Positions 3,633-40,740 of a DNA stretch of 40,781 bases are shown here, piece after piece. A model generated the notes under the pieces. The model searched no databases. It saw only the letters and a program-made list of their open reading frames with translations, and had not been told where the DNA came from. Both the position numbers and the translations under genes were made by a program. Source of the stretch: Lachnospiraceae bacterium (lineage in GTDB: Bacteria > Bacillota > Clostridia > Lachnospirales > Lachnospiraceae). Position 1 is the stretch's first letter. Each line of letters starts with the position of its first letter. The stretch covers positions 1 to 40,781 of the forward strand of contig JAQXFO010000051.1 of the NCBI GenBank assembly GCA_029005135.1. Reading direction: 5' to 3'.

Positions 3633-3665
3633 TGATATAGCTGTCGGAAGGGCAACTTTTTTTTA

Positions 3666-3694
3666 TTGATGCCGGTGTTGTGAATCGGTATAAT
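3666..3694 (+). promoter_or_regulatory. Sigma-A-type promoter of the SDR gene
   Basis: -35 TTGATG (3666-3671), a 17-base spacer and a perfect -10 TATAAT (3689-3694) lie about 45 bases before the start codon. Confidence 0.8.
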
Positions 3695-3738
3695 ACTGTT
3701 AGCGTTTGATAAATAACGACAATCAGGAGGATAAAAAC

Positions 3739-4503: not shown

Positions 4504-4547
4504 TTAGCAGGAATCGCAGAATCCGGGTTTTCTTAATGTCAATGAAG

Positions 4548-4580
4548 AAAGGTCACACCGCGGAAACCGGTGTGACCTTT
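4548..4580 (+). terminator. Terminator of the SDR gene
   Basis: A perfect 13-base stem (AAAGGTCACACCG at 4548-4560 with 4568-4580) has a seven-base loop. The following bases are CCGGTT rather than a long T-run. Confidence 0.75.
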
Positions 4581-4614
4581 CCGGTTATCCCATGATCGTC
4601 TTTCCGGGAGTGTT

Positions 4615-6345
4615 ATGCTGAAACTGCTGCTTTATCTGTTGTCTTGCTTCGGCTATGTGGAATGTCTCCGCCGGTGGACAAAGGTTAGCGTCTACTATCT
4701 GCCGGGGCTGACGATCGCTCTCCAGACATCGCTGCTTTTTCTGGCCGGGCTGTGCGGGCAGCTGGCCAGGATGACGTATCTGCTCTTTTTTGTCGGCCTG
4801 CTGGGACTGGGGTATGGTTGTGTCAGGGCGATTCAAAACAGGAATGCCGCTTTTTTGGGAGGATATCTTGACAGCGGCTATATCAGCTTTGCGGTCATTA
4901 TCGCCGTGATGGCTGTCTTTGTCAGGGGTAAGGTCTTTACACATTATGACAATTTCAACCATTGGGCCGTGATAATCAGGACGATGCTGACCTATGACCG
5001 TTTTCCGAACGCCGCCGACACGCTGATCCGATACCGGACCTATCCGCCGGGCAGTGCCGTCTATCTATACTATTTCGGACGCCTTGTCTCAGAGGGAGAA
5101 GCCTGGCTGATGCTGGCTCAGATCATTATGATGACAGCGGCGATCCTGCCGCTTTTCAGCCTGGCGAAGCGGCATAAGCCGGTCATCGCCGTGCTGGTGA
5201 TCGGTCTGACGCATTTCTTCTTTACTTATAATGTGCTGGTCAATAATCTTCTTGTCGATACCCTTCTTCCTCTTGTCGGCATGAGTGCCCTTCTGTATCT
5301 GTGGGAATACGGCAGGACCATACGCAGTTGGCCGGCCTTATTCCTGTCGGCGGTTTACCTGATCCAGATCGTTCTTATCAAAAATTCCGGTCTTTTTTTC
5401 GCGGCAGCGGCAGTGGTTTGTCTTATCATCGGGGCGAGAAGGGATCATCGTTATGCGGCAAGACTCCCGGTCGTCGTGCTTCCGTTGTTGTCAAACCGGC
5501 TCTGGAGCCTCCATTGCGCGCATACCTTTGCGGATGCGTCTTCGTCGGCCCATACCATGTCCTTGGATTATTATGCTTCGGTGCTGTCACAGAAAAGCGG
5601 CGCCGATATCCTTCAGATCAGCCGGCTGTTTCTGAAGACGCTGATCACCGATAAGAGCCTGTGGTTTCTGGCCGGCATGTTTGTTGCTGTCGGTGCGCTG
5701 ATCGGTTTCCTGAATCGCCGTGCCCTGCCGCTCTGGAAGAAGACGGCGCTGGCGGCGGGACTTCTGGCTGCCGGCTATGAGATCGGCCTTCTGGGGATGT
5801 ATCTGTTTTCCATGCCCCTGGAGGAGGCCGTCAATCTGGCCTCCTACGGCCGGTACTCGCGGTCTTTGATTATCGCGCTGGTGTATCTTCTGATGGTGCC
5901 GGTAATCAAAGCTGTTGCCGATGACGGGTTTTCTCTGCCGAAGGCCTGGGCGGTGAGCGCGGTGATTCTGCTGATGACAGGGGGCCTTTCCCTGGTGACC
6001 TTCGGCACCGTCCGTTATATCACACAACCCTCCCTTTACCATGATCCGACGTCCGAGAAGCGTTACTGGCTGGATCGGGTTATCGCCGACTATCAGGTGC
6101 CGGCGGGCAGCACGTATTGCGTTCTGAAGAAATATCCATCGGTATACTATCGGAATCTCGGCCGCTATCTCTATCAGACGACGGCCTTCGATGATGCCCT
6201 CATCGAGAACGAAGAGCAGCTGGATGAGCTTGAGGCAAGGTATCTTTTCGTGGAAGACGGCGAGAATCCTGTTATTCAGGCGTGGATCGAGAAAAACTAT
6301 CCGGACCAGGCGGGCCGGGAGGTGATTATCTGTGATGAACGATAA
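4615..6345 (+). CDS. Polytopic membrane protein, probable GT-C glycosyltransferase
   Basis: This codes 576 residues with about eleven or twelve hydrophobic segments and a soluble C-terminal tail of about 110 residues. After the first membrane segments comes a loop HYDNFNHWAVIIRTML followed by RYRTYPPGSAVYLYYF; acidic and aromatic residues in such an external loop are typical of GT-C enzymes that use polyprenyl-phosphate sugars outside the membrane. No closer family can be named. GGGAG lies four bases before ATG 4615. The next gene, a GT2-GtrA fusion, overlaps its end, so the pair probably form one system: the fusion would load and flip a lipid-linked sugar and this protein would transfer it. 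The acceptor is unknown. Confidence 0.7.
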   Translation: MLKLLLYLLSCFGYVECLRRWTKVSVYYLPGLTIALQTSLLFLAGLCGQLARMTYLLFFVGLLGLGYGCVRAIQNRNAAFLGGYLDSGYISFAVIIAVMAVFVRGKVFTHYDNFNHWAVIIRTMLTYDRFPNAADTLIRYRTYPPGSAVYLYYFGRLVSEGEAWLMLAQIIMMTAAILPLFSLAKRHKPVIAVLVIGLTHFFFTYNVLVNNLLVDTLLPLVGMSALLYLWEYGRTIRSWPALFLSAVYLIQIVLIKNSGLFFAAAAVVCLIIGARRDHRYAARLPVVVLPLLSNRLWSLHCAHTFADASSSAHTMSLDYYASVLSQKSGADILQISRLFLKTLITDKSLWFLAGMFVAVGALIGFLNRRALPLWKKTALAAGLLAAGYEIGLLGMYLFSMPLEEAVNLASYGRYSRSLIIALVYLLMVPVIKAVADDGFSLPKAWAVSAVILLMTGGLSLVTFGTVRYITQPSLYHDPTSEKRYWLDRVIADYQVPAGSTYCVLKKYPSVYYRNLGRYLYQTTAFDDALIENEEQLDELEARYLFVEDGENPVIQAWIEKNYPDQAGREVIICDER

Positions 6346-7411
6346 GACGGGGACGATCGCGGTGGTCATACCGGCCTATGAGCCGGATGACAGGCTTCCG
6401 GCCTTTCTTCGGGAATTGTCGGAACGGGGAATTGGTCCCATCGTGCTGGTGAATGACGGCAGCGGAGAAGACTGCGGTACCGTCTTTGCGGAGGCGGCTT
6501 CCTATGTGGAAAAAAGCGGGGGGGTTCTGCTGACCCATGAGGTCAACCGGGGAAAGGGCTGTGCCCTGAAAACGGCGTTTTCCTATCTTCTTGGGCATGA
6601 TGAAGACCTGACCGGCGTTATCACAGCCGACGCCGACGGTCAGCACTCCGCCGAAGATATCGGGAAGGTACGGAAGGCCATGACGGCACATCCCGGGACA
6701 CTGGTTCTCGGCGTGAGAAACTTTGACGGCGATGATGTGCCTTGGAAGAGCCGTTTCGGCAACAAGTTGACAGAAGCGCTTTTTGCCTATGTCTCAGGCC
6801 TTCATGTGACGGACACCCAGACAGGGCTGCGCGGTATTCCGAAGGGATTCCTGCGTGAATTGACGGCGGTGGAAGGCGAACGCTTTGAATATGAAATGCG
6901 GATGCTTCTGGCTGCGGCAGGGCACTGCCCGATTACGGAAGTGCCCATCGAGACGATCTATGACTCAAAGGAGGATCACCGGACGCATTTCGACCCGATC
7001 AGGGATTCGATCCGCATCTACCGGATCCTGGGCGAACGTTTCTTTCGTTTTCTGTTTTCTTCACTGGCTTCCTGTGTCCTGGATCTGATTCTGTTTTCGG
7101 TATTCTGTTTTCTGCTGAAGGGCCGGTTCCCGGTCTTTTATGCCGGTATAGCCACGGCGGCAGCGCGGATCCTGTCTGCCTCTGCCAATTATCTGATCAA
7201 TTATCGGCTGGTTTTTGCCAGCCGGGAAAACCGGGGCAAAGCCGGTATGCGCTACGCACTCCTTGCCGCCGCGCAGATGGGACTCAGTGCCCTGGCGATC
7301 ACCGGTCTTCTCAGACTTATGCCGGGAGGTCCGGAACTCGTATTCAAGATCGTGATCGATACGATCCTTTTCCTGATAAGCTATAAGATCCAGCAGAAAT
7401 ACGTTTTCTGA
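6332..7411 (+). CDS. GT2 polyprenyl-phosphate glycosyltransferase fused to GtrA domain
   Basis: The first 215 residues are a family-2 glycosyltransferase of the DPM1/GtrB type: VVIPAYEPDDRLPAFL, VNDGSGEDC, the ITADADGQHS metal-binding stretch and DTQTGLRG. The last 130 residues carry four hydrophobic segments typical of GtrA, a proposed lipid-sugar flippase (ARILSASANYLINYRLVF). Established Gtr systems encode GtrA and GtrB separately; here they are one 359-residue chain. It should make a polyprenyl-phosphate sugar at the inner face and move it out. GTG 6332 is nine bases after GGAGGTGAT; ATG 6335 is the only near alternative. It overlaps the preceding gene by 14 bases, indicating translational coupling. 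Confidence 0.88.
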   Translation: MMNDKTGTIAVVIPAYEPDDRLPAFLRELSERGIGPIVLVNDGSGEDCGTVFAEAASYVEKSGGVLLTHEVNRGKGCALKTAFSYLLGHDEDLTGVITADADGQHSAEDIGKVRKAMTAHPGTLVLGVRNFDGDDVPWKSRFGNKLTEALFAYVSGLHVTDTQTGLRGIPKGFLRELTAVEGERFEYEMRMLLAAAGHCPITEVPIETIYDSKEDHRTHFDPIRDSIRIYRILGERFFRFLFSSLASCVLDLILFSVFCFLLKGRFPVFYAGIATAAARILSASANYLINYRLVFASRENRGKAGMRYALLAAAQMGLSALAITGLLRLMPGGPELVFKIVIDTILFLISYKIQQKYVF

Positions 7412-7430
7412 TTCTTCCGTGAAGACAATA

Positions 7431-7482
7431 AAACACCGTGTGTCACCTGTTCTGCGGGCAGGTTTCACACGGTGTTTTTTTA
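7431..7482. terminator. Bidirectional terminator between convergent genes
   Basis: A perfect twelve-base outer stem (AAACACCGTGTG at 7431-7442 with 7466-7477) holds an inner ACCTG/CAGGT stem, is flanked by A's on the left and followed by T's on the right. It serves both the GT2-GtrA gene and dapA. Confidence 0.88.
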
Positions 7483-7492
7483 AAGCATTCCC

Positions 7493-8377
7493 TTACAGAC
7501 AGCCAAAATCGATCATGGCTTGTTTCAGGGAGGCTTTATGACCTTCTTCAAGTTCCGTCAGCGGGAGCCGCGGGGCTCCGGCGCGGAAGCCCTGGAAATT
7601 GAGGGCTGCTTTTACGGGAATGGGGTTTACTTCTGAGAAAAGCTCCGCTATCAGCGGCATGGCTTTTAGCTGGATGGTACGAGCTTTTTCATAGCAGCCC
7701 TCAAGACAATAAGCCACCATGTCATGCGTTACACGCGGGGCTACATTTGACAGAACGGAGATAACACCCTTGCCGCCGAGGGAGCAGACAGGCACGATCT
7801 GGTCGTCGTTGCCGGAATAGATCGCGAAATCATCGCCGGTCAGAGCGGCCAGGTGAGCGATCTGGCTGATATTGCCGGAGGCTTCTTTGATACCGACAAT
7901 ATTTTCCTGCATTTGGCTCAGGGCAAGAACGGTTTCCGGAAGCAGATTGACCCCGCATCGGGAAGGGACGTTGTATAGGAGACAGGGTATATCAACCGAA
8001 GAGGCTATCGCCGAAAAGTGCGCGATGAGACCTTTCTGGGTGGCTTTATTGTAATAAGGAGTGACCAGCAGAAGACCGTCGGCACCGGCCTTTTGCGCTT
8101 TGCGTGACAGTGCGGCGGCGTAAACGGTGTCGTTGGAGCCTGTGCCGGCGATGACGGGAACACGGCCGTGAACCGTTTCAACGGTAAAACGGATGGCTTC
8201 CACATGCTCCTCGTCGGTCAGGGTAGAGGCCTCCCCGGAGGTGCCGACGGTGACGATGGCGTCGATGCCGTTCCGGATCTGGTCGTTGATCAGATCCTCA
8301 AAGGCGGCGTAGTTGATGCTGCCGTCCTCGTGCATGGGTGTGACGATCGCCGTGCCGGCGCCTGTAAAAATCGGCAT
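7493..8377 (-). CDS. dapA: 4-Hydroxy-tetrahydrodipicolinate synthase
   Basis: DapA condenses pyruvate with aspartate semialdehyde, the first committed step to lysine and meso-DAP. The 294 residues match the family along their length: GTSGE (45-49), TPYYN (106-110), YNVPSRCG with catalytic Tyr135 and Arg140, and the Schiff-base Lys164 in GIKEASG. Lineage features include SGNDDQIVP and SEVNPIPVK. GGAGGT lies five bases before the ATG. It lies 72 bases downstream of mmsA on the same strand and is probably cotranscribed with it, an unusual partner. A specialised family member (another keto-acid aldolase) cannot be fully excluded, but the close match to clostridial DapA and the presence of ddh in the window support lysine synthesis. 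Confidence 0.92.
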   Translation of the reverse strand: MPIFTGAGTAIVTPMHEDGSINYAAFEDLINDQIRNGIDAIVTVGTSGEASTLTDEEHVEAIRFTVETVHGRVPVIAGTGSNDTVYAAALSRKAQKAGADGLLLVTPYYNKATQKGLIAHFSAIASSVDIPCLLYNVPSRCGVNLLPETVLALSQMQENIVGIKEASGNISQIAHLAALTGDDFAIYSGNDDQIVPVCSLGGKGVISVLSNVAPRVTHDMVAYCLEGCYEKARTIQLKAMPLIAELFSEVNPIPVKAALNFQGFRAGAPRLPLTELEEGHKASLKQAMIDFGCL

Positions 8378-8449
8378 AGAGTACCTCCGGGGTTATGTCA
8401 TACTTATATAAGGAGTGGCTTCATGGGCCTGGTTCCGGCAGTCGGGAAC

Positions 8450-9967
8450 TTAGCGTTCCACGGTGCCTTCCCAGGTATCCATGGCTTTTTTGCGGGAATT
8501 CTCATCGTACCAGTGCTTGGTGACGGTTTTGGCTCTGGTGTAGAAACGGACACCGTCGAGGCCGAGGACGTGCTGATCGCCGAAGAAGGATTCCTTATTG
8601 CCTGAGAACGGGAAGTAGGCTGACGGTACCGGGATACCGACGTTGATGCCGACCATGCCGCCGTCGGACAGCAGCTCGAACTGGCGGGCATAGTAGCCGT
8701 TCTGCGTAAAGATGGCGGAGCCGTTGGCGAACGGGTTGGCGTTCATCAGGGCCAGACCTTCTTCGAAGGTTTGGACACGCTTGATCAGTGTGACCGGGCC
8801 AAAGATCTCGCGATTGCCGATCTCCATCTCCGGTGTGACATGATCGAAGATCGTCGGGCCGACGAAATAGCCGTTTTCATAGCCCGGCACCACGATGTCG
8901 CGGCCGTCGAGGATAAGTTCGGCTCCCTCATCAATACCCTTCTGGATCCAGTTCAGGATGGACTCCTTGTGTTTGGCGTTGACGACCGGACCCAGCTTGG
9001 TCTCCGGGTCGTAGGCGCAGCCAACCTTCATGGCCTGGGCTTTTTTCTTCAGCAGGGCGACGAACCTGTCGGCGATGCTTTCCTGTACCACAATGACCGG
9101 GAGCGCCATGCAGCGCATGCCGGCGCAGCCGTAGGTGGAGTTAATAATGGCGTTGGTGGTGCTTTCAAGGTCACAGTCTTCCAGAACCAGGGCGTGGTTC
9201 TTGGCCTCTGTCTGCGCCTGGACACGTTTGCCGTGGGCGGCAGCGACGGAGTAGATGTGCTTGCCGACACCGGTGGTGCCGACGAAAGTAACCGCCTTGA
9301 TGCGCGGATCTGTCAGGAACATCTCGGATTCGTTGCGGCTGCAGGTGACAAGGTTGACAACACCCTTCGGGAAACCGCCTTCTTCATAGAAGAGTTCCAT
9401 GATACGCATGGATGTCAGCGGTGTGAAGGAGGCCGCCTTCAGAACCACGGTATTGCCGGTGGCAATGGCCAGCGGAACCATCCAGCCCCACGGGATCATG
9501 GCCGGGAAGTTAAAGGGGACGATACCGGCGACAACGCCGAGCGGCATGCGGTATGTGGAAGTATCGAAGCCAGTTGTGACCTGCATGGAGCAGCTGCCCT
9601 GGGACAGATAGGAAACACTGCAGGCCAGCTCGGTCGGCTCGATGGCTTTGAGGATGTCGCCGCGGGCTTCGTTCAGTGTCTTGCCGAGCTCCTTGGAGCA
9701 CAGAAGCGTCAGCTCGTCCAGATGATTGACCAGGACGTTGCGCCAGTGGAATAAGTACTGGGTTCTCTTGCTGAGGGACAGAAGAGACCAGCTCTTGAAA
9801 GCTTCATCGGCGGCTGTGATGGCTTCGTCGACTTCTTCGGCCGTGCAGCACGGGACTTCGGCGATGACTTCACCGGTGCTGGAGTCTGTGACGGGCATCC
9901 ATTTGTCAGTTTTGGATTCTTTCCATTCGCCGTTCACGCAGTATTTTTTTCTGATGACTTCGCTCAT
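8450..9967 (-). CDS. mmsA: CoA-acylating methylmalonate-semialdehyde dehydrogenase-type ALDH
   Basis: This 505-residue aldehyde dehydrogenase belongs to the MmsA/IolA group, which oxidises malonate or methylmalonate semialdehyde to acetyl- or propionyl-CoA with NAD and CoA. Visible landmarks are NGEWKES near the N-terminus, PFNFP (151-155), the cofactor loop GTTGVGK (230-236), AKNHALVLEDCD, and catalytic Cys286 in GMRCMAL. The N-terminal half lacks the Glu general base expected of ordinary ALDHs, as in MMSDHs. ATG 9967 is chosen because AAAGGA precedes it and family proteins start here; an upstream in-frame start at 10024 would read through the control region. Repression by the divergent IclR protein is strongly suggested by operators at its promoter. 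Confidence 0.88.
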   Translation of the reverse strand: MSEVIRKKYCVNGEWKESKTDKWMPVTDSSTGEVIAEVPCCTAEEVDEAITAADEAFKSWSLLSLSKRTQYLFHWRNVLVNHLDELTLLCSKELGKTLNEARGDILKAIEPTELACSVSYLSQGSCSMQVTTGFDTSTYRMPLGVVAGIVPFNFPAMIPWGWMVPLAIATGNTVVLKAASFTPLTSMRIMELFYEEGGFPKGVVNLVTCSRNESEMFLTDPRIKAVTFVGTTGVGKHIYSVAAAHGKRVQAQTEAKNHALVLEDCDLESTTNAIINSTYGCAGMRCMALPVIVVQESIADRFVALLKKKAQAMKVGCAYDPETKLGPVVNAKHKESILNWIQKGIDEGAELILDGRDIVVPGYENGYFVGPTIFDHVTPEMEIGNREIFGPVTLIKRVQTFEEGLALMNANPFANGSAIFTQNGYYARQFELLSDGGMVGINVGIPVPSAYFPFSGNKESFFGDQHVLGLDGVRFYTRAKTVTKHWYDENSRKKAMDTWEGTVER

Positions 9968-10030
9968 AACGGGGTTCCTTTCTGATGATGGGGTTGAGTG
10001 TTTGATTTCTTTGATTGAGGACAATAAACA

Positions 10031-10198
10031 AAATCAAATTTCAATTATTAAAATTTGATTTACAATAATATGATATAATCGAAAATTCATTCTGTCAATA
10101 GAAGTACTGTTTTAATTATTAAAATTATGTTTTAGAAATCTATCGCCTCTCTGTTGACATTTCCGCCGGTATCTGTAGTATAATTTTAATAATTAAAA
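10031..10198. promoter_or_regulatory. Triple-operator control region between mmsA and the IclR gene
   Basis: Three near-identical palindromes TTTTAAT-N-ATTAAAA occur: 10039-10053 (one mismatch, inside a larger perfect repeat with 11-base arms at 10031-10041 and 10051-10061), 10110-10124 (perfect) and 10184-10198 (perfect, 19 bases with flanks). Their centres are 71 and 74 bases apart, close to seven helical turns. The mmsA promoter on the minus strand is TTGACA (10093-10098), 17 bases, TATCAT (10070-10075), so the first site lies just past its start point. The regulator's promoter is TTGACA (10154-10159), 19 bases, TATAAT (10179-10184), overlapped by the third site. Confidence 0.85.
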
Positions 10199-10216
10199 TT
10201 TGTGAAAGGCGCAGTT

Positions 10217-11014
10217 ATGGCATCTCAGGATAATAAGCACCAGAGTCTGTCTTCGGTCAGACTTCTCAAAATAATAGAATGTATGGCAGATAAGACGGAG
10301 CCGATGAGGCTGACGGATCTGGCAGCTGAACTTGCGATGACGCAGCCGACGCTGCTTCGCTATCTGAATGCCCTGTATACGGAGGGGTATATTTATCAGG
10401 ATATGGCTACCGGCAATTATGCGCTGACCTGGAAAATCTGCGGTCTTGGGGAACGCCTGAGATCCAACGTCAGCCTGCGGACGATGGTGTCACCTTATCT
10501 GGCCAAGCTGTCCCGGGCCCTGGATGTGGGGCTTCTGCTGGCAGTGGAGCATGAAGGCGATATTCTCTATCTCGATATGGTGGGTAATCCCAATAATTCC
10601 ATGGGAGCCCTGCTGCGTATCGGCAAGGACGCACCGATCCACACTACCGGGTCGGGCAAGATCATGCTGAGCTCTCTGCCCAATGCTCAGGTGCTGCGTA
10701 TCCTGGAAGCGAAGGGAATGCCGGCCCTGACACGCTTTACGATCACGGATCAGGCCGCTTTTATGGAAGAGCTGGCAAAGGTAAGGGAGCAGGGCTATGC
10801 TCTTGATAATGAAGAGTGTGAGATCGGTCACAAGTGTCTCTCGGTACCGGTGCGTGATTTCAGCGGGCGCATTGCTGCGGCCATCAGCGCTTTTGACGAT
10901 GCGGACCGCCTGACGGAGGAGCGGATGACGAAAAAGATCCTGCCGGCACTGAGGGAAGCCGCGGGAGAGATCTCGTATCGTCTGGGTTATACGCCCTTTT
11001 ATGGAGAACGATGA
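10217..11014 (+). CDS. IclR-family transcriptional regulator
   Basis: The 265-residue protein has an N-terminal winged helix (SVRLLKIIECMADKTEPMRL, then TDLAAELAMTQPTLLRYLNALYTEG) and a C-terminal effector-binding domain ending in LSVPVRDFSGRIAAAISAF, the classic IclR layout. IclR proteins bind small metabolites and repress or activate adjacent catabolic genes. ATG 10217 is chosen because GAAAGG lies seven bases upstream; a GTG at 10202 is at the edge of an operator and lacks a ribosome site. It is divergent from mmsA-dapA and very likely controls both that operon and itself through three palindromes between them. The effector may be an intermediate of the mmsA pathway; this is inference. Confidence 0.93.
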   Translation: MASQDNKHQSLSSVRLLKIIECMADKTEPMRLTDLAAELAMTQPTLLRYLNALYTEGYIYQDMATGNYALTWKICGLGERLRSNVSLRTMVSPYLAKLSRALDVGLLLAVEHEGDILYLDMVGNPNNSMGALLRIGKDAPIHTTGSGKIMLSSLPNAQVLRILEAKGMPALTRFTITDQAAFMEELAKVREQGYALDNEECEIGHKCLSVPVRDFSGRIAAAISAFDDADRLTEERMTKKILPALREAAGEISYRLGYTPFYGER

Positions 11015-12063
11015 CGGAGGGGAACCTTAGACAGGGCGGGATCGAATTACTGAGGCTCGTGCTGATGCTGATGATCTGTCTGCTTCATGTTCTGGGAAAG
11101 GGAGGTGTCCTGGCGGCGGCCGGGCCGGGCACTGTGCCGTACGGCGTGTACTGGTTTTTGGAATGCGGCGCCTACTATGCCGCGGATGCGTTCATGCTTA
11201 TCAGCGGCTATATGGTGACGGATAAGCCGGTAAAAGCCGGCAGAATTCTGACGATGTGGTGTCAGGTATTCTTTTATTCCTTTATCCTGACGGCACTTCT
11301 GACGGCGGTTGACAGCCATGAGGGCTGGCAGCTGTCGGCTCTGATACGCTGGGCAATGCCGCTTACCTTCAACCGGTACTGGTATTTTAACGGTTATTGT
11401 CTCCTGTTCCTGGCAAGGCCGGCGCTGAACCGGTTCCTTTTCAGTATCGACGAGACGGCAGCCCGCCGGGCCTTCGTCCTGATCTTCGGGCTGTTTTCCG
11501 TCATCGGGACATGGTATAACAGCTTCCATACCGAACGCGGCTATGCGGCTGTCTGGATCCCTGTTCTGTATTGTCTGGGCGTCCTGGCCCGGCGAGGGCG
11601 GATTTTTGAGACGAGACCAGGGTACACCCTCGCTTTGACGGCGGCAGTCTGTATTATGATCACATGGGGCATGAGAATGGCGGGCTTTGCCGGCCTGGTG
11701 GATTACACAGCGCCGACACAGGTCCTGGCGGCGCTGATGATCGTGATCCTTTTCTCCCGGCTGCCGATCAGGGCCCGATGGGTTTTCTGCCTGTCGCCTC
11801 TGGCCTTCGGCGTCTACCTCTTCCAGCTGAATGTCGTTATCTGGAACCGACTTGACGGGGCCTTTGCTTTTGTGCCGGCCATGACTCTTCCGGCCGGGCT
11901 GGCGGTGGTGACGGGCGCGGCGGTGCTGATCTTTGCCGGCGGCCTTCTTGTGGAAGGACTCCGCCGCTGTTTTTCGAAACGTCTTCAGATCCCGCAGCTC
12001 TGCGACAGGGCCGCTGCAGCGGCAGAACGCCTGATTGTCAGAGTCGGGGAGGCTTTGCAATAG
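11011..12063 (+). CDS. Acyltransferase-3 family membrane protein
   Basis: The 350 residues form about ten membrane segments and match the acyltransferase-3 (OafA-like) fold that O-acylates cell-surface sugars. The early GIELLRLVLMLMICLLHVLGKGG segment carries the family His in the first helix, followed by ADAFMLISGYMV, a typical second-helix signature. The acceptor is unknown. The ATG overlaps the IclR gene's TGA (ATGA at 11011-11014), so it is translated from the same message and may share its autoregulation. No function links it clearly to mmsA-dapA; surface glycan modification is the default reading. Confidence 0.8.
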   Translation: MTEGNLRQGGIELLRLVLMLMICLLHVLGKGGVLAAAGPGTVPYGVYWFLECGAYYAADAFMLISGYMVTDKPVKAGRILTMWCQVFFYSFILTALLTAVDSHEGWQLSALIRWAMPLTFNRYWYFNGYCLLFLARPALNRFLFSIDETAARRAFVLIFGLFSVIGTWYNSFHTERGYAAVWIPVLYCLGVLARRGRIFETRPGYTLALTAAVCIMITWGMRMAGFAGLVDYTAPTQVLAALMIVILFSRLPIRARWVFCLSPLAFGVYLFQLNVVIWNRLDGAFAFVPAMTLPAGLAVVTGAAVLIFAGGLLVEGLRRCFSKRLQIPQLCDRAAAAAERLIVRVGEALQ

Positions 12064-12075
12064 GCTGTCAGAATG

Positions 12076-12606
12076 TCAGAAAAGTACGATGCGGTCCGCC
12101 CGGCCGGAGACCCGATGCCAGATAAGGCAGGTACTGCCCGGGGTGATGTCTTCAAGCGTCACGCGGATGCGGCGCAGATGGGGAATGATGGGACAGTCCG
12201 CAGGAATATGATAGGTCAATACGCCCGATGTCAGCCGATAGCTGCCGTCGGGCATTTTTTCGAAGCGACGGACGGTCACGTATTCCGGAAGGCGCCAATC
12301 GGCGGGAAGATCGCAGAGGATCATCGGGGCGTAGACACGGGGAGGCAGGGACAGTGTCATGGCCGGACTGATGTAGGCGCAGACCGGCGTATCCGGACTC
12401 AGTGACGCAATCGAAACGGGAAGACCGTCGCCGGCTGAGAGCAGGCGGCTGCCGGCGTCGAGAAGCAGGACCACAGGCCCGCGGCAGCTCAGGTCGGCGC
12501 GGTTATCGATGGTGAGGTAATCCGGGCCGGCTTCAAGCACGGGACCCCAGAGGCGAAGGCTTGCCGGGTCTGTGTCAGAGGCTGACGGGCGGGTATTGTC
12601 AAGCAT
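12076..12606 (-). CDS. Conserved clostridial protein of unknown function
   Basis: The 176 residues read as a beta-rich soluble domain: GPVLEAGPDYLTIDNRAD, then AYISPAMTLSLPPRVYAPMIL, CDLPADWRLPEYVTV and a closing VPADCPIIPHLRRIRVTLEDI. I recall this pattern from uncharacterised clostridial proteins, sometimes attached to secreted repeat proteins; here there is no signal peptide or membrane segment, so the domain would be cytoplasmic. AAAGGAG lies eight bases before the ATG. It converges on the acyltransferase gene with only twelve bases between the stops and no visible terminator. No function can be assigned. Confidence 0.7.
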   Translation of the reverse strand: MLDNTRPSASDTDPASLRLWGPVLEAGPDYLTIDNRADLSCRGPVVLLLDAGSRLLSAGDGLPVSIASLSPDTPVCAYISPAMTLSLPPRVYAPMILCDLPADWRLPEYVTVRRFEKMPDGSYRLTSGVLTYHIPADCPIIPHLRRIRVTLEDITPGSTCLIWHRVSGRADRIVLF

Positions 12607-12957
12607 GGATCAATCTCCTTTCGAATAGGTTTTCAGCTCTTTTTATAATAAGAAAAGACCAAACGCTTTTGGCATGCGTCGGACGACAACATAAATCCAA
12701 GTCTATCGTCCGCCGTGTCCCTTACTTCAGCGCCATCATACAATACTATTATGCTCACATTGACAATAATAGTCAAAAGGAACACAGGCCGGTTCTCCCC
12801 TGTGCCCCAAAACCTTCGCTGAGTTATAAGCCGAGAGTCGAAAGCCTTCCAACGGCTGCTTTTCTCGTGTTTATAAGTCATATAAAAAGGCTATGAAGAT
12901 GACACAAAATCGGATTTGAAAAACGATGCCTTCTCGTTATAATGAATCTAACTGCAG
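12607..12957. other. Divergent intergenic region with inverted repeats
   Basis: This 351-base gap separates two divergent genes and contains no coding sequence I accept. On the minus strand a candidate promoter TTGACT (12771-12776), 17 bases, CATAAT (12748-12753) could serve the unknown gene, leaving a leader of about 135 bases. An eight-base inverted repeat ACTATTAT/ATAATAGT (12745-12752 and 12766-12773) overlaps both promoter boxes, as an operator would. A seven-base repeat CGGACGA/TCGTCCG (12680-12686, 12706-12712) lies in the leader, and CACAGG/CCTGTG forms a weak hairpin at 12784-12804. Confidence 0.5.
12916..12943 (+). promoter_or_regulatory. nadE promoter
   Basis: -35 TTGAAA (12916-12921), a 16-base spacer and -10 TATAAT (12938-12943) lie 42 bases before the nadE start. 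Confidence 0.75.
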
Positions 12958-12984
12958 ATGCTTCATTTTCAGGAAGGATTTTTT

Positions 12985-13773
12985 ATGAGTACAGAATATC
13001 GCTTTGATGCTGTGAAGACAAAAGACGCTGTGGTGGCCTGGATCCGGGATTTTTTTGAAAAAAACGGTCCCGGCTGTCAGGCGGTGCTCGGTATTTCCGG
13101 CGGCAAGGACAGCTCGGTCTGCGCGGCACTCTGTGCCGAAGCTCTCGGCAGAGACCGGGTGGTGGGCGTGCTGATGCCGAACGGCGAGCAGGCAGATATC
13201 GATATGTCGCGGCTTCTGGTGTCACATCTGGGCATCAAATCCGTCGTTGTGAATATCAAAGAGGCCGTTGACGGCGTGCTCAATGCTATCAATGCCGGCG
13301 AAAAGAACGGGACAGAGCTCTCGATCTCCCGTCAGACTGTCATCAATCTGCCGCCGCGTATCCGCATGGCTGCGGTCTATGCCGTCAGCCAGAGTCTGAA
13401 CGGCCGTGTTGTCAATACCTGCAATCAGTCCGAGGATTGGGTGGGTTATTCCACACGCTACGGCGATGCCGCCGGTGATTTCAGCCCGCTGGGTCATCTG
13501 ACGGTTCAGGAGGTCAAAGCCATCGGCCGTGTGCTGGGGCTGCCGGAGGTTCTTGTGGATAAGGCGCCCTCCGACGGGCTGTGCGGCAAGACGGATGAAG
13601 ATAACCTCGGCTTTACCTATGCCATGCTGGACCGCTATCTGAGAGAGGGGATCATCGAGGATCCCGAAAAAAAGGAACTGATCGACAACAAGAGACGCTG
13701 GAATCGCTTCAAGCTGGAACTGATGCCGATGTTTGACCCGGGATTCCCGATTCTGGCAGAGGACAAGCACTGA
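12985..13773 (+). CDS. nadE: Ammonia-dependent NAD+ synthetase
   Basis: NadE amidates deamido-NAD+ to NAD+ using ATP and ammonia, the last step of NAD formation. The 262 residues contain the P-loop SGGKDS (38-43) of N-type ATP pyrophosphatases and family segments INLPPRIRMAAVYAVSQ, NTCNQSEDWVGYSTRYGDAAGDFSPLGHLT, DKAPSDGLCGKTDEDNLGFTY and the closing RRWNRFKLELMP. There is no glutaminase domain, so free ammonia is the nitrogen donor. GGAAGGA sits six bases before ATG 12985; a longer reading from 12958 would hide this site inside the gene. A nearby pncB supports a salvage role. Confidence 0.97.
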   Translation: MSTEYRFDAVKTKDAVVAWIRDFFEKNGPGCQAVLGISGGKDSSVCAALCAEALGRDRVVGVLMPNGEQADIDMSRLLVSHLGIKSVVVNIKEAVDGVLNAINAGEKNGTELSISRQTVINLPPRIRMAAVYAVSQSLNGRVVNTCNQSEDWVGYSTRYGDAAGDFSPLGHLTVQEVKAIGRVLGLPEVLVDKAPSDGLCGKTDEDNLGFTYAMLDRYLREGIIEDPEKKELIDNKRRWNRFKLELMPMFDPGFPILAEDKH

Positions 13774-35012: not shown

Positions 35013-35040
35013 TTGACTTTTCGGAGTCAGGGACTATAAT
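35013..35040 (+). promoter_or_regulatory. Promoter of the TPP-controlled operon
   Basis: -35 TTGACT (35013-35018), 16 bases, -10 TATAAT (35035-35040). Transcription would start about 15 bases before the TPP aptamer. Confidence 0.8.
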
Positions 35041-35057: not shown

Positions 35058-35158
35058 GAACAGAGCCCGCTGGGGGAGCTTACGCTGAGAGTGCAGAGCC
35101 GCAAGGCCTGCAGACCCTTATCACCTGATCCGGATAATGCCGGCGCAGGGAAGTGTAC
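35058..35158 (+). ncRNA. TPP riboswitch (THI element)
   Basis: The conserved aptamer cores are all present: GGGGGAGC near 35072, CTGAGAG (35085-35091), ACCCTTATCACCTGATC (35114-35130) and GGATAATGCCGGCG (35132-35145) closing with AGGGAAG. It binds thiamine pyrophosphate. Past the aptamer, CGGGAG (35176-35181) can pair with CTCCCG (35224-35229) of the terminator's left arm, a likely antiterminator, and can also fold with TCCCGG (35186-35191). Thiamine pyrophosphate should therefore stop transcription before the operon. Confidence 0.97.
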
Positions 35159-35223
35159 AAGGACGGACATAAGACCGGGAGTGTATCCCGGGTGAGCGTG
35201 TCTGCCGATTGAGGATCATCGAT

Positions 35224-35255
35224 CTCCCGCAGAGTGTTTCTGCGGGAGTTTTTTT
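35224..35255 (+). terminator. TPP riboswitch terminator
   Basis: A perfect ten-base stem (CTCCCGCAGA at 35224-35233 with 35239-35248) with a five-base loop is followed by seven T's, about 77 bases before the first gene of the operon. Confidence 0.93.
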
Positions 35256-35331
35256 ATGTCTCCGCTGAAGTTGTCAGCCGGATCATCATCACACAGCCGT
35301 GCCGGTCGGCGCGGCAGAAAGAGGCAGCGCT

Positions 35332-36579
35332 ATGGCAGGAACGATCTGCCCGAAAAAAGAAGAGTGCGAGGCCCTGTGCCTCCGTTATCCGGCAGTGCCG
35401 GTCTATGTCATCCTGAAGCTCAGTATGATCCGTTACGGCGCAGTCCTGACGCCGGCGGCGGATAAGCGTCTCCGGGAAAAGGATCTGAGTTTCAACACAT
35501 CGGAAGCCTTCGGCCTGTCCTACGGCAGCGGCCCCGGAACCGATAACGCCATGCCGGGCCCGGTGCTTCTCAGGGACGCCTCCTTTGTCTATATCAACTG
35601 GGGTGAGGCTTATGAAGATCCCTATGTGATCGATTACGATCCGGAGACCGGAGACTTTTATCTTAAGGAAAGGGATATCGTCATCGACACGGTCAGTTTT
35701 GTGGAGAGACCGGCCTTCTTTGATAAGAAGACACGCCGGGGCATCCCGATGGCGTCCCTGGCGGATGTCCGGGCGCAGAAGCTGATCATGACGACCTGGC
35801 GGAAATGCATTTTCAGGGATCTGGGAATGGCCTGCCGGTTCTGTGCCTTTTTCTCCAGCGGCAGCGGCGAGATCGAGGTGGATCCCGAGGATCTCTACGA
35901 TGTGGTCAGCGAAGCTATTAAGGAAAGGGGCCGCTTTTCGGAGATCGCTCTATCCGGCGGCACGGATCTGACGGGAAGGCCGCCCTTTACGCAGGAGTCT
36001 GATCGCTACATCCGACAGTGGCAGGCCATCGGGCGTCTCTTCCGGGATCGTTTTCCGGCCCAGCTTATGGCGCCGGCCTATCCGAAGGCCATGCTCCGGC
36101 GGATCTATGATAATACCGGCATCACGTCCTACAGTGCCAATCTGGAGATAGCCGATCGAGAGCGTTTTGCAGCCTACTGTCCGGGAAAGGCGCATTTCGT
36201 GGGGTATGATACCTGGCTTGGCCGCCTGGAGGAGGCTGTCGAGGTCTTCGGCCCCGGCAATGTCTGCACTCAGATAGTGGCCGGCGCCGAATTGGCAGGA
36301 AGGGATGCTTTTTCGTCGATCGAGGAGGCACTGGAGTCCAACTTCCGGGTCTGTGAACGGCTGGCGTCCAACGGTGTCGTCTTCCTGTCAACGATCTGGC
36401 GGCCCCATGCGGCCTGCGATCTGGGTTATGTCCCGGTGCCGCCTCTGGAATATTACGTCCGGTTGGCGGAGGGCCTGCACGCGATACGCGCCTCCTACGG
36501 GCTGCATTCCTTTGATGACGATTACCGTCACTGCGGCAACCATCCCGACAGCGACATGGAAAGGACGGATTACCTATGA
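35332..36579 (+). CDS. Atypical radical SAM protein, first gene of the TPP-controlled operon
   Basis: The 415-residue protein has a radical SAM core, but the cluster motif is spaced CX8CX2C (Cys159, Cys168, Cys171: CIFRDLGMACRFC) rather than CX3CX2C. It continues with EIALSGGTDLTG (SAM-binding Gly motif, about 204-215) and a TIM-barrel pattern. From memory, extended spacing occurs in BioB-related radical SAM groups such as MSMEG_0568-type proteins; the closest family cannot be confirmed here. Three more cysteines (6, 12, 16) lie in an unusual CPKKEECEALC N-terminus and may hold another metal. AAAGAGG is seven bases before ATG 35332; a GTG at 35299 is less likely. TPP control suggests thiamine-related chemistry. 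Confidence 0.82.
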   Translation: MAGTICPKKEECEALCLRYPAVPVYVILKLSMIRYGAVLTPAADKRLREKDLSFNTSEAFGLSYGSGPGTDNAMPGPVLLRDASFVYINWGEAYEDPYVIDYDPETGDFYLKERDIVIDTVSFVERPAFFDKKTRRGIPMASLADVRAQKLIMTTWRKCIFRDLGMACRFCAFFSSGSGEIEVDPEDLYDVVSEAIKERGRFSEIALSGGTDLTGRPPFTQESDRYIRQWQAIGRLFRDRFPAQLMAPAYPKAMLRRIYDNTGITSYSANLEIADRERFAAYCPGKAHFVGYDTWLGRLEEAVEVFGPGNVCTQIVAGAELAGRDAFSSIEEALESNFRVCERLASNGVVFLSTIWRPHAACDLGYVPVPPLEYYVRLAEGLHAIRASYGLHSFDDDYRHCGNHPDSDMERTDYL

Positions 36580-37046
36580 TAAGACAGATCCGAAAGCAAA
36601 CGATCAGCGAAGCTGTCCGTGAGACGGTGACCGGCGCCGCAGCTGTGGGCGTGATCGTCGGGAATACGATCCACGGCTGTGCCGCCGTCGACATCGAAGG
36701 CGACAGCCTTTACCTGTCGATCCCGTCCGAGAGGAACGCGGGCGCTGCCGCCGTCACGAAAGCCCTCTGGGAGGGAACCGATGTGCCTCTGGCGCTGACG
36801 GCAGAGGACGGATCCCTGAAGATCCTCCGTGCGCTGCCCGATCGCTGTCATATATCGGGCAAAGTCTTCGCCCGTTTTTATATGAAGAGACGCCATGAGG
36901 CGCCCGGCGGCGATATCAGCTGCGTCTGGGAAATGACTCCCGATGGGCTGACGGCGCCTGACCCGGCGGTGGTCTACAGCCGGCAGGAGACGGCGGCCTC
37001 CCTGGAGGACCGTCATCTGGATCATGAGGACTTAAGAGCCCTTTAA
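36576..37046 (+). CDS. Unknown 156-aa partner of the radical SAM protein
   Basis: The start codon overlaps the radical SAM stop (ATGA at 36576-36579), so the two are made together. The protein opens with an amphipathic helix (IRQIRKQTISEAVRETV), then a beta-rich section: AVGVIVGNTIHGCAAVDIEG, DSLYLSIPSERN, VPLALTAEDGSLKILRAL, CHISGKVFARFYM and SCVWEMTPDGL. The strand order faintly recalls split-barrel flavin (PNPOx-like) folds, but no phosphate-binding motif is convincing. No signal peptide or membrane segment. I do not recognise a family. Being locked between the radical SAM gene and ykoF points to a specific role in the same thiamine-linked process. Confidence 0.65.
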   Translation: MIRQIRKQTISEAVRETVTGAAAVGVIVGNTIHGCAAVDIEGDSLYLSIPSERNAGAAAVTKALWEGTDVPLALTAEDGSLKILRALPDRCHISGKVFARFYMKRRHEAPGGDISCVWEMTPDGLTAPDPAVVYSRQETAASLEDRHLDHEDLRAL

Positions 37047-37084: not shown

Positions 37085-37675
37085 ATGGAAAAGACAATGA
37101 AACCGACCCTTTGCCGCTTCAGTCTGGCCCCCATGAGCGACAGCTTTATCGAGATCATCCTGGGCGCCATCGCCAAAGTGGATACCTCCCGGGTCAGCGC
37201 GGTGACCGATGAGTTTTCGACGACCTACCGCGGCGGCCGCCGCCAGGTCCTGGATGCGCTGAAGGCCTGCTTTGCGTATTCGTACCGCGAGGGTGTTCAT
37301 ATGGCCCTCAACGCGGTGCTGGAAGCGGGCTGCCCCTGCCGTGCGGAGGAAGACGCCCGTGTCTGCCCGGCTGCCTCAGCGGATGAGACGCTTGTCAATG
37401 AAGCCGGAACGGCCTCTCTTCATTTTAAAACAGCGGTTAAGTTTTCCCTGTATTCGATGGGAGACGAGGACTACCTTGACCGGATAGCGCCGGTCATCGC
37501 CATTGTGAAGGACGCCGGCCTGTTTGTCCGGAGTGATCCGGGCGCCACGGTGATGCAGGGTGACGTCGGGGACATTTTCAACTGTCTCGAAGCCGTCGCC
37601 GCGCACTGCGAGGCCAACCTGAAACACTATGTTATCCAGCTGACTCTGGCGGTCAATCTGCCGGAGGAGGCATAG
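37085..37675 (+). CDS. ykoF: Thiamine/HMP-binding protein YkoF
   Basis: YkoF of Bacillus subtilis is a soluble protein with two tandem ACT-like domains that binds thiamine and HMP and works with the YkoEDC transporter. This 196-residue protein has the same length and shape: RFSLAPMSDSFIEIILGAI, then SAVTDEFSTTYRGGRRQVLDALKACFAYSY for the first domain, and KTAVKFSLYSMGDEDYLDRIAPVIAIVKDAG and DIFNCLEAVAAH for the second. AAGGAG lies eight bases before the ATG. It sits 38 bases after the 156-aa gene, within the TPP-controlled operon, in the same order as in B. subtilis (F, E, D, C). Confidence 0.88.
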   Translation: MEKTMKPTLCRFSLAPMSDSFIEIILGAIAKVDTSRVSAVTDEFSTTYRGGRRQVLDALKACFAYSYREGVHMALNAVLEAGCPCRAEEDARVCPAASADETLVNEAGTASLHFKTAVKFSLYSMGDEDYLDRIAPVIAIVKDAGLFVRSDPGATVMQGDVGDIFNCLEAVAAHCEANLKHYVIQLTLAVNLPEEA

Positions 37676-37721: not shown

Positions 37722-38342
37722 ATGACAGAAAACAAACAGTCCATGGTGTGGAAAACGAAAGATATCCTGATGGTCGCCATCATCGGCGTCCTCTGCTCCT
37801 TCCTGTATCTGGGGAACGTCTATCTGGGTCTGGCTATTACCACCGCGTTGACCCCCGCCGGCTGGGGAGTGATCGGCTACGAGCCCTTATACGGCATTTT
37901 CTTCATGGCAGCATCTCTGGCTGTTTTCATCATCCAGAAGCCGGGTGTGGGCATCGTCGCCGAAGTCATCGCCGCGACGCTGGAAGTCCTGATGGGCAAC
38001 TGGTTCGGCCCGGGCGTTATTCTGACCGGTCTGATCCAGGGCGCTTCCGTTGAACTGGTCTTCTTCCTGACACGCTACAAGAAGTTCAATCTGAAGACCA
38101 TGATGGCCAGCGGTGTCTCCGTGGCCCTGATCAGCTATGCCTATCATCTCTTTGAATCCCAGTACTATCTGCTGGAGCTGAAGTTTATCCTGGCCATGGT
38201 GGTGACACGTACCGTCAGCGCCGTCATTATCACCGGTATCGTCGCCTACGGCATCGGCACCGGTCTGGCCAAAGCCGGTGTACTCAATGCGTATCCGCTG
38301 GGTCAGAAGCTGAATCATAAGGAAAGCTACGAAGTTGACTGA
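37722..38342 (+). CDS. ykoE: HMP/thiamine ECF S component YkoE
   Basis: YkoE is the substrate-capturing membrane subunit of the YkoEDC importer for HMP and related thiamine precursors. The 206 residues have about six membrane segments: TKDILMVAIIGVLCSFLYLG, the GYEPLYGIFFMAASLAVFII segment, and GNWFGPGVILTGLIQGASVELVFFL, which match the family's conserved region. ATG 37722 is preferred as GAGAGGGA lies six bases upstream. Its stop overlaps the ykoD start by eight bases. The binding pocket cannot be resolved, so HMP, thiamine or a degradation product remain possible. Confidence 0.9.
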   Translation: MTENKQSMVWKTKDILMVAIIGVLCSFLYLGNVYLGLAITTALTPAGWGVIGYEPLYGIFFMAASLAVFIIQKPGVGIVAEVIAATLEVLMGNWFGPGVILTGLIQGASVELVFFLTRYKKFNLKTMMASGVSVALISYAYHLFESQYYLLELKFILAMVVTRTVSAVIITGIVAYGIGTGLAKAGVLNAYPLGQKLNHKESYEVD

Positions 38343-39840
38343 TAGAACGGAGGGGACAGCGCTGCAGGCTGACGGCATCACCTTCCGCTACATCGAGCAG
38401 AACAAAAGAAATGTCCTGGATAATGTCAGCATCGGCTTTCCGGCAGGCCGGATCACGGTCCTGATGGGCTCGAGCGGCAGCGGCAAAAGCACGCTGGCCG
38501 CCGTGCTGGCCGGTCTGTATCCCGAAAATGCGGGCATTCTCGTATCCGGCACCGTCTCGGTATTCGGACAGCCCCTGGAGGCCCTGCCGCCGTCGCGGCG
38601 GGCCCTTCAGGTGTCGATGATGTTCCAGAACGCGGATCTGCAGTTCTGCATGAAGACACTGCGGGATGAGATGCTTTTCTGCCTGGAGAACATTTCCTGT
38701 CCGCCGGAGGCCATGGACGCACGCATCAGCGAGGCGGCCCGGACGATGGGGATGACGGACTGTCTTGATCGTCCCTTTGCCGTGCTGTCCGGCGGAGAAA
38801 AGCAGAAGGCGGCACTGACCTGCCTGTTCCTTCTGAAGTCGAAGATTATTCTGCTCGATGAGCCCTTTGCCAACATCGATTCCGCCTGGACCGGTGTCAT
38901 CATCGGCATGCTGAAGGAAATGAACCGCCGCTATGGCACCACGGTCATCGCCATCGACCATGTGCTGGATGACTGGATGGAGGCCGTCGATGAGATACAG
39001 ATCCTCTGCCGTGACGGTGAGGTTGTGAGCGGTATCCGCCCTTCGGATCTGGCGGCACATCGGGAGTTATTTCACCGGGAAGGCCTGCGCCTGCCGGGAG
39101 AGATAGCCGATAAGGTGCGGGGCGAAATAACGGAAGGCCGTATCACGGTCGCAGCGGAAGCTCTGACGATGCGCCGCCCCGGGAGGCGGGGCAAAACGGG
39201 ACCGGTGCTCCTTGACGGGGCCGATGCCGGTTTTGCCGAGAACAGCATCACGGCTTTGCTGGGACCCTCGGGCTGCGGCAAAACGACCTTTTTCCGCACG
39301 CTGCTGGGACAGGAGCGCTATGAGGGAAGCCTTCGGGTGACGGACGACGAGGTAAGGCGCCTGAAAAGCCGGAGCCTGCTTTCCCGCGTCGGTATCGTTT
39401 TCCAGAATCCGTCGCACCAGTTTGTCTCCCAGAACGTGCTGACGGAGGTAGAGACGGGGATCCTCGGCCGTCTTCCCCATAAGGGAGAATGCGAGGGGAC
39501 GGAGACAGAAGAGAAGGCTCTGGCCCTTCTCAGACGCTTTCATCTGGATAAGTATCGCCGCTATTCGCCCTTTATGCTCAGTCAGGGGCAGCAGAGGCGC
39601 CTGGCGGTCCTGTCGGTGCTGGCAGGCCCCCAGAGTATCCTGCTTCTGGATGAGCCGACCTACGGTCAGGACGACGCGATGACGCAGGAGATCATGCGTC
39701 TGCTGCAGGATGTGATGACGGAGAGGCCGATGACGGTGATCATGACAAGTCATGACCGGCGGCTTGTCCGGGAGTGGGCCGACCGTGTCTATGTGTTCAG
39801 GGAGGGAGGGCTATCTCTTGAAGATCATGGAAAGATTTAA
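38335..39840 (+). CDS. ykoD: Double ATP-binding subunit YkoD
   Basis: This 501-residue protein fuses two ECF-type ABC ATPases. The first has Walker A GSSGSGKST (45-53), signature LSGGEKQKA and Walker B IILLDEPFANID; the second has GPSGCGKTT (310-318), signature LSQGQQRRLA (415-424) and ILLLDEPTYGQDD. YkoD has the same fused form in B. subtilis and powers YkoE and YkoC. It begins with TTG 38335: AAGGAAAG lies eight bases upstream, and no in-frame ATG fits. It overlaps ykoE by eight bases and ykoC by 23, so the ABC subunits are translationally coupled. Confidence 0.95.
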   Translation: MTDRTEGTALQADGITFRYIEQNKRNVLDNVSIGFPAGRITVLMGSSGSGKSTLAAVLAGLYPENAGILVSGTVSVFGQPLEALPPSRRALQVSMMFQNADLQFCMKTLRDEMLFCLENISCPPEAMDARISEAARTMGMTDCLDRPFAVLSGGEKQKAALTCLFLLKSKIILLDEPFANIDSAWTGVIIGMLKEMNRRYGTTVIAIDHVLDDWMEAVDEIQILCRDGEVVSGIRPSDLAAHRELFHREGLRLPGEIADKVRGEITEGRITVAAEALTMRRPGRRGKTGPVLLDGADAGFAENSITALLGPSGCGKTTFFRTLLGQERYEGSLRVTDDEVRRLKSRSLLSRVGIVFQNPSHQFVSQNVLTEVETGILGRLPHKGECEGTETEEKALALLRRFHLDKYRRYSPFMLSQGQQRRLAVLSVLAGPQSILLLDEPTYGQDDAMTQEIMRLLQDVMTERPMTVIMTSHDRRLVREWADRVYVFREGGLSLEDHGKI

Positions 39841-40552
39841 CCCGGTCCTGAAAATGGGCACCATGCTGGTCTCGGCGGTCCTTCTTATGTTCAACCAGGC
39901 GATCCTGCTGAATCTGATCGTCTTTGCGGTGAGCCTTGTTCTGCTCCTCTTTTTTTCAAAGGCGGAGAAAAAACGTATCGTCACGATACTTTGCCCGATC
40001 GTGGTCGTGGTGGCGGCGCTTTTCATGGCCGGCTATAAGAACGCCGGTCAGGGGGCGATGATGGCCTATGCCATCGGCCGCCATGACATCGCCTCCATCG
40101 GTATCGAGGCACCGGTCTACACGGGGCTTAAGCTGGCTTCCCGTGTCCTCGGCTATGTGGGCCTGGGACTTCTGGCCGGGTTGACGACGCCGCCGGAGGA
40201 TCTGGCTCTCAGCCTGATGCATCAGCTGAAAGTCAAGCCGAAATTCGCCTACGGCGTCCTGGCAGCCTATCACCTGATCCCGACAGTGGGGCAGGAACTG
40301 GAGGATGCCCGTCTCGCCTATAAGGTCAGAGGCCTGCCCGGCAGCCGATGGTCTCTGAGGCCCTTCTTCGCGGCCATGGTGAACTGCATCCGCTGGTCGG
40401 AGAATCTGGCCATGGCGATGGAATCCAAGGGTTTTGACGGGGACGGTGCCCGGACGGCCTGCCGGACGATGACGGTGCGGGGGACGGATATCCTCTGTGC
40501 CGTACTGGTGATCGTCCTGATGGCGGCAGGGATGGTTTTCCTGCCGCTCTGA
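39818..40552 (+). CDS. ykoC: ECF transmembrane subunit YkoC
   Basis: YkoC is the EcfT-type coupling subunit linking YkoD to YkoE. The 244 residues carry about five membrane segments and the EcfT signature region KVRGLPGSRWS with a following AMVNCIRWSENLAMAMESKGFDG; the Ala-Arg-Gly-type coupling helices interact with the ATPase. TTG 39818 is chosen because GGGAGGG ends seven bases before it; ATG 39827 would be 16 bases away. It overlaps the end of ykoD. It ends the TPP-regulated operon; no strong terminator is visible, only a weak GCGGC/GCCGC hairpin (40563-40577). Confidence 0.92.
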   Translation: MKIMERFNPVLKMGTMLVSAVLLMFNQAILLNLIVFAVSLVLLLFFSKAEKKRIVTILCPIVVVVAALFMAGYKNAGQGAMMAYAIGRHDIASIGIEAPVYTGLKLASRVLGYVGLGLLAGLTTPPEDLALSLMHQLKVKPKFAYGVLAAYHLIPTVGQELEDARLAYKVRGLPGSRWSLRPFFAAMVNCIRWSENLAMAMESKGFDGDGARTACRTMTVRGTDILCAVLVIVLMAAGMVFLPL

Positions 40553-40629: not shown

Positions 40630-40654
40630 GTCAATAATAAACGGATAAAGCCAT

Positions 40655-40740
40655 AGGCTATCTGAACAGGCGCCGGCATAGCCGGAGCGGCCGGGTCATT
40701 TATGAGACAGCGGAGATCAGCATCCGCGGGACAGATATCG
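40655..40740 (+). ncRNA. NiCo-type (czcD) metal riboswitch
   Basis: The layout matches the known NiCo aptamer. P1 is TATCTG (40659-40664) with CAGATA (40732-40737). AACAGGC follows P1, and GGGA (40728-40731) precedes its 3' strand, as in the NiCo consensus. P2 is CCGGC/GCCGG (40673-40677, 40681-40685), followed by AGCGGCCGGG. P3 is TCAT/ATGA (40696-40705), and P4 is GCGGA/TCCGC (40710-40714, 40723-40727). NiCo RNAs bind cobalt, nickel or iron-type ions and turn on metal exporters. The P1 and P4 3' strands lie inside the terminator, so ligand should favour readthrough. Confidence 0.8.

Follow-up and report, generated by a model that had tools for sequence, protein, structure and literature searches.

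The TPP riboswitch-controlled ykoFEDC operon of a Lachnospiraceae bacterium contains two additional genes, which encode a radical SAM (rSAM) protein and a small partner, and the same pair is found together with ykoFEDC genes in a range of other genomes. We are highly confident that the pair is linked to vitamin B1. It is a recurrent addition to TPP-controlled salvage and, to judge from our searches, an undescribed one; among the titles and abstract beginnings covered, with most subscription papers outside reach, no description of such a pair was found. Regarding its role, we tentatively favour a reading that we consider quite possible: a thiamine-type compound enters through YkoFEDC and is converted to thiamine by the two proteins.

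The stretch analysed here, the window, comprises the 40,781 nucleotides of a contig from a 2.15 Mb genome assembly that is 100% complete, and all features described for it lie on the forward strand. A sigma-70-like promoter, assigned by consensus match only (35013..35040; TTGACT-16-TATAAT, 11/12), precedes a TPP riboswitch aptamer at 35062..35168, which matched the full RF00059 model (positions 1-105 of 105) with 61.9 bits, above the gathering score of 54.3. Between the aptamer and the first gene lies an intrinsic terminator (35224..35255), composed of an 11-pair stem (35224-35248) and a subsequent T-run, with a folding energy of -19 kcal/mol (z -5.5). The importer genes follow further downstream and match their families in order: ykoF (37085..37675; PF07615, 129 bits), encoding a two-domain thiamine/HMP-binding protein, ykoE (37722..38342; ECF S component, PF09819, 107 bits), ykoD (38335..39840; fused ECF ATPases, PF00005 in two stretches) and ykoC (39818..40552; CbiQ-type ECF T component, PF02361, 66 bits). 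The aptamer, the terminator and the four yko genes of the original prediction are thus all borne out by the covariance model, the stem with its T-run and the Pfam matches. The same is true of the two genes it had placed between the switch and ykoF, the rSAM gene (35332..36579; 415 aa), with an ATG start at 35332 and an alternative GTG at 35299, and the partner gene (36576..37046; 156 aa), coupled to it by an ATGA overlap. The B. subtilis ykoFEDC operon, which encodes a THI-box-controlled ECF importer, has the TPP riboswitch, YkoF, YkoE, YkoD and YkoC in common with the window and differs from it by the absence of these two genes. Directly 3' of ykoC, at 40653-40736, the window also holds a NiCo riboswitch (RF02683, 48 bits), shortly before the contig ends at 40781.

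The rSAM protein carries the cluster motif C159-x8-C168-x2-C171. This CX8CX2C spacing is present in 16 of 16 rows of the TPP-linked subfamily, and CX8-9CX2C in 24 of 24 aligned rows, across which only C159, C168, C171 and C283 are invariant. In the tree, two sister groups of the linked rSAMs are well supported (group B 99/100, group C 100/100), whereas the TPP-linked set formed one clade in 24% of bootstraps; 'linked subfamily' is therefore a working name only. The window protein scored above the cut-off for NF045502 variant_rSAM (160.4 bits, cut-off 125), under the curated cut-off for Pfam PF04055 (27.1 versus 29.5 bits) and far below that for TIGR04043, the MSMEG_0568 family (70.6 versus 303.7 bits). 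All 24 aligned members matched both NF045502 and TIGR04043 at E<=0.001, and the model lines of both state no function. The closest solved folds to its AlphaFold model (pLDDT 89.7) are LipA, HydE, MqnE, BioB and ThiH, but identity to LipA, HydE, BioB and ThiH is as low as 11-17%. In contrast to the sulphur-insertion enzymes LipA and BioB, the 24 rows of the family show no further set of conserved cysteines that could hold an auxiliary cluster, and a LipA/BioB-type sulphur insertion is disfavoured because of these missing extra cysteines. Comparison of both proteins with the sequences of solved structures returned no relevant match, the antibody rows and one kinase row being taken as chance, and six peptide patterns found no relatives in viral contigs. 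No profile search placed the rSAM protein in a solved pathway.

Taken alone, the window partner showed no direct family match, PF01243 (PNPOx_N) included, and a weak DsbD_TM line below the cut-off was taken as chance. Its relatives were more informative. A profile of three TPP-linked partners aligned in hhalign with one of eight sister-rSAM partners at E 2.5e-10 (probability 96.8), and with the best single PF01243-matching partner at E 5.4e-6; PF01243 itself was matched at E<=0.05 by 5 of 22 pooled partner rows, at best with 2.4e-6. The sister partner set also weakly matched HupZ and PNPOx structures, with HutZ in three of its eight members, and 22/22 partner rows share an H-[LIM]-D motif close to the C-terminus. 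By homology to the PF01243-matching partners, rather than by a profile match of its own, the window protein is most likely a divergent PNPOx-like split-barrel protein, judging from sequence comparison. In anaerobic haem use, the rSAM protein HutW/ChuW pairs with a HutZ-type split barrel. That system likewise combines an rSAM and a split-barrel-like protein tied to cofactor import; its ligand differs, and we note a likeness to the window pair, not membership.

We scanned one genome per species with two peptide patterns, and since both came from three TPP-linked rows (window, G015 and G596), the scan favours near kin. Seventy-eight stretches matched and 16 loci were confirmed (L058-L073), labelled Lachnospiraceae, Pseudoflavonifractor, Tissierellia, Synergistaceae or unplaced Clostridia; two of them (L062 = G015, L070 = G596) are query rows met again. 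YkoF was recognised by Pfam, and YkoE by Pfam at L058, L059, L062, L066 and L071 and by eye at the rest. The rSAM gene lies inside a ykoFEDC operon at 13 of the 16 loci, and a TPP riboswitch was found at 12, all of them among these 13; without the two query rows, operon and riboswitch each count 11 of 14. The linked loci span Bacillota and Synergistota. The connection with TPP control and ykoFEDC drawn in the original prediction is supported by this recurrence, together with the gene fusions described below.

Gene order varies between these loci. In the window and at L058 the pair stands between riboswitch and importer (TPP-rSAM-partner-ykoFEDC), while it follows the importer (TPP-ykoFEDC-rSAM-partner) at L059, L061, L062, L063, L065, L066, L068 and L073. 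L071 reads TPP-ykoEDC-ykoF-rSAM/partner, and L070 reads ykoFEDC-rSAM/partner on a contig that ends just before ykoF, so that a riboswitch could not be seen. At L069 (Synergistaceae) and L072 the order is TPP-ykoFEDC-rSAM; no partner was seen beside the former rSAM gene, and the contig of the latter ends inside the rSAM gene, with no visible partner. Alignment A7 accordingly leaves out L072, which is cut by the contig end, and alignment A8 leaves out L069, L072 and L073 (partner present by eye). Three solo loci (L060, L064, L067) have no adjoining ykoFEDC; their genomes carry TPP-controlled yko genes elsewhere, comprising ykoF-ykoE-ykoD (L137) or ykoF-ykoE (L136) as far as the loci reach. In the genome of L067, a relic of the rSAM C-terminus lies between a TPP riboswitch and ykoE-ykoD (L152, reverse complement, approximately 1859-2128), alongside an intact rSAM and partner elsewhere.

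At 14 of the 16 loci the partner either adjoins the rSAM gene or forms part of a fusion. Partner and rSAM form a single ORF at L065 (717 aa), L070 (597 aa) and L071 (579 aa); the fused proteins of the latter two lack the rSAM C401 motif and the partner's RC[HL] cysteine, which is present in 12/14 linked-subfamily partners. At L058, partner and YkoF instead make up one protein of 363 aa, in which the best PF07615 stretch is 173-251; nothing else hints so directly that the partner handles a YkoF ligand. Relatives are scattered: any homolog, with the window's own genome included and most matches distant, was found in 14/200 genomes of the family, 14/391 of the class and 3/41 of the genus. The class sample has PF07615 in 14/391 genomes and a two-domain YkoF in four, of which only the window's carries the rSAM, the other three having no match. 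ykoFEDC-type operons thus exist without the rSAM/partner pair.

Thiamine synthesis genes were compared between 14 linked genomes (the window's and 13 others), three solo genomes and seven sister-group genomes. ThiC is present in 0/14, 2/3 and 6/7 of these, respectively, and PF01964 gave no match at E<=0.001 in the window's genome (G000). Three linked genomes, those of L059, L069 and L072, exceed the curated cut-offs for both ThiE and ThiD; the other 11, the window's included, have neither. The two solo genomes with ThiC, G625 and G629, possess ThiD and ThiE as well, and thiamine pyrophosphokinase (TPK) exceeded its cut-off in 17/17 genomes, the solo three included. Weak matches below the cut-offs, ThiE-like in four linked genomes (about 20 bits) and ThiD-like kinases in nine, the window's among them (up to 67 versus 205 bits), make a divergent ThiE or ThiD enzyme possible. 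In a family sample, ThiC was over its cut-off in 82/200 and ThiE in 120/200 genomes, and both are rarer in the linked set (Fisher p 0.0011 and 0.0093), in tests that treat related genomes as independent, set a collection from several families with many MAGs of untold completeness against a single family, and count G000 and G015 (the genome of L062) on both sides.

Among the 13 named linked genomes, six or more have, as read by eye, a second TPP riboswitch ahead of a ThiT-like ORF, as does one solo genome; this lower bound covers only TPP riboswitches with a locus. PF09515 was run on L159 and L160 and confirmed ThiT in both. Since such genomes already have a ThiT-like importer, the additional one and its enzymes may be there for a compound different from plain thiamine. 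The clearest case is Diplocloster agilis, with ThiT, TPK and the operon and without ThiC, ThiD or ThiE over cut-off. For the window's genome, a genome-wide search in which 150 of 174 first-look candidates were scored listed no second TPP riboswitch; with only one found, YkoFEDC may be its main thiamine importer.

Ligands of such importers have been described. YkoE of B. subtilis was crystallised with thiamine, which it binds at approximately 4.5 nM with the pyrimidine at the pocket bottom; conservation is stronger for the residues that hold the pyrimidine than for those that hold the thiazole (PMC5037267, in the part available), leaving room for thiazole-altered ligands. In YkoF the HMP moiety is held in place, whereas the thiazole does not seem to be anchored (PMC5627462, in part). 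Published listings give YkoEDC as an importer of HMP (PMC6593275 Table 1; PMC5627462, as far as covered) and YkoEDC2 as one of B1 (PMC6593275); the passages of the latter survey that were covered mention no rSAM alongside YkoEDC. With regard to HMP, the linked genomes stand in contrast to B. subtilis: 11 of the 14 have neither ThiD nor ThiE over cut-off and hence no known way of using HMP, and its salvage is unlikely in most of them. As TPK is present throughout, the compound fed to it should then be thiamine, and we accordingly regard thiamine as the probable product, in preference to HMP. From TPP control together with an HMP-type importer the original prediction had inferred that the pair makes, repairs or dismantles a piece of thiamine; the connection to B1 has held, while the HMP step has become doubtful, and an intact two-ring compound is in our view a better guess than a piece. 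Salvage of base-degraded thiamine through TenA, YlmB and ThiXYZ offers a familiar comparison. It, too, couples the import of a thiamine product to its processing, yet it yields HMP, depends on ThiD/ThiE and uses no radical enzyme (PMC5627462, in part), unlike the window pair.

The sister rSAMs hint at what kind of chemistry might be involved. Group B comprises eight rows from seven genomes, in which no TPP riboswitch was found at the pairs in the stretches searched; the linked subfamily, with its 13 of 16 loci in ykoFEDC operons, does not lie mainly away from thiamine genes. metK adjoins group B pairs at four of seven loci (L020, L021, L023, L052; by eye) and an NMT1/THI5-type ABC importer at six of seven (by Pfam at L020, L021 and L022, the rest by eye); L053 has instead MetH and a Cys/Met-type enzyme nearby. 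The L052 cluster (1800-13520), with sulphite reductase, a Cys/Met PLP enzyme, ThiF, metK and a phosphorylase-superfamily gene, suggests anaerobic organosulphur use. S-box riboswitches near the L051 and L053 pairs lie downstream of the rSAM-partner genes or point away from them, and SAM control of the sister pairs by these elements was dropped. Two further features were noted at sister loci: a GA-cis RNA (L022 12257-12352, equivalent to L006 2691-2786; RF02987, 68.7 bits), which sits where one sister rSAM gene has its 3' end, ahead of the partner, and a DUF1254/DUF1214 protein beside the rSAM/importer cluster of L021 (2279-3565, reverse strand).

Group C rSAMs adjoin nifH-like (L051) or nifH/D/K-like genes (L055, L056, L057; names by eye), possibly as part of a system unlike the known MarBHDK. 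Their loci also have NMT1-type ABC importers and, at L055 and L057, metK (both named by eye), with a phosphorylase-superfamily gene at L057; L056 and L057 each contain two or more distant variant rSAMs. Group B and the window's group follow a common plan of importer, rSAM and split-barrel-like protein, and given the methionine and sulphur genes around group B, one may fairly guess, though no more than guess, that the window's group performs C-S chemistry on the thiazole half.

We infer that the two proteins work on the compound that is imported and turn it into thiamine. In the course of events that we envisage, low TPP would let transcription through the riboswitch, as its class and the terminator suggest, and YkoFEDC would import thiamine-family compounds. 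A compound with the pyrimidine half, yet not usable as thiamine, would be passed to the rSAM protein and its split-barrel partner; the former would attack it with a 5'-deoxyadenosyl radical, while the latter, perhaps binding flavin or substrate, might join the electron or product step. The resulting thiamine would be converted to TPP by TPK. The altered part could, as a guess, be the thiazole half with its sulphur, changed by oxidation, by ring opening or by substitution at S or C2. A more specific version, in which the pair regenerates B1 from thiazole-damaged or S-/C2-substituted thiamine and so provides a ThiC/ThiD/ThiE-free TPP route, recruited into a TPP riboswitch operon from a family in which other members possibly act on sulphur compounds, is conceivable but doubtful. 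Several observations speak against import-coupled conversion in general: three of the 14 linked genomes keep ThiD and ThiE, two of the three solo genomes have ThiC, ThiD and ThiE, ykoFEDC-type operons occur without the pair, L069 shows no partner, the weak ThiE- and ThiD-like matches allow for a divergent enzyme, the window's genome may rely mainly on YkoFEDC for thiamine, and the tight binding of thiamine by YkoE fits plain import, for which no enzyme is needed.

Other roles would account for parts of the same picture. The pair could serve in detoxification, if a broad YkoFEDC also brought in thiamine antivitamins that the two proteins inactivate or convert; the shared operon and the fusions would fit this equally, as would the importer proteins' hold on mainly the pyrimidine half (PMC5627462 and PMC5037267, in part), but control by TPP shortage would suit supply better than defence, and we consider this reading unlikely. 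A role in place of ThiC or in pyrimidine salvage, with HMP or HMP-P as the product, would explain why no linked genome has ThiC and would agree with the listing of YkoEDC as an HMP importer. It is nevertheless rather improbable, and was set back as the first choice, as its product would lack a known use in the 11 genomes in which ThiD and ThiE were not found over cut-off, and as G625 and G629 have the rSAM together with ThiC.

metE under B12 riboswitch control is the model for a cofactor-sparing isozyme. A corresponding role, in which the pair would replace a TPP-dependent enzyme when TPP is short, follows the logic of the riboswitch and of a pair that comes first in the operon in the window and at L058; its recurrent place in the operon, now ahead of ykoFEDC and now behind it, and the partner-YkoF fusion point to a transported ligand instead, and make this role very unlikely. 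Thiamine catabolism, for example for sulphur, draws on the sister pairs beside metK, NMT1-type importers and, once, sulphite reductase, which may treat other compounds in this way. However, a TPP-repressed operon would then degrade thiamine just when it is scarce, and such a function appears highly improbable.

Conversion of an imported compound to thiamine, our preferred reading, would bear on how vitamin requirements are predicted from genomes. In one survey, about one in two gut genomes was rated auxotrophic for B1 (PMC6593275, in part); should the pair produce thiamine from some other compound, genomes regarded as strict thiamine auxotrophs would have a hidden source. The proposal is testable in operon carriers whose records are not labelled MAG, namely Diplocloster agilis, D. 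modestus and Lachnoclostridium sp. An138. If it is true, a new radical reaction on thiamine exists, and the sister groups offer a handle on an uncharacterised rSAM family.
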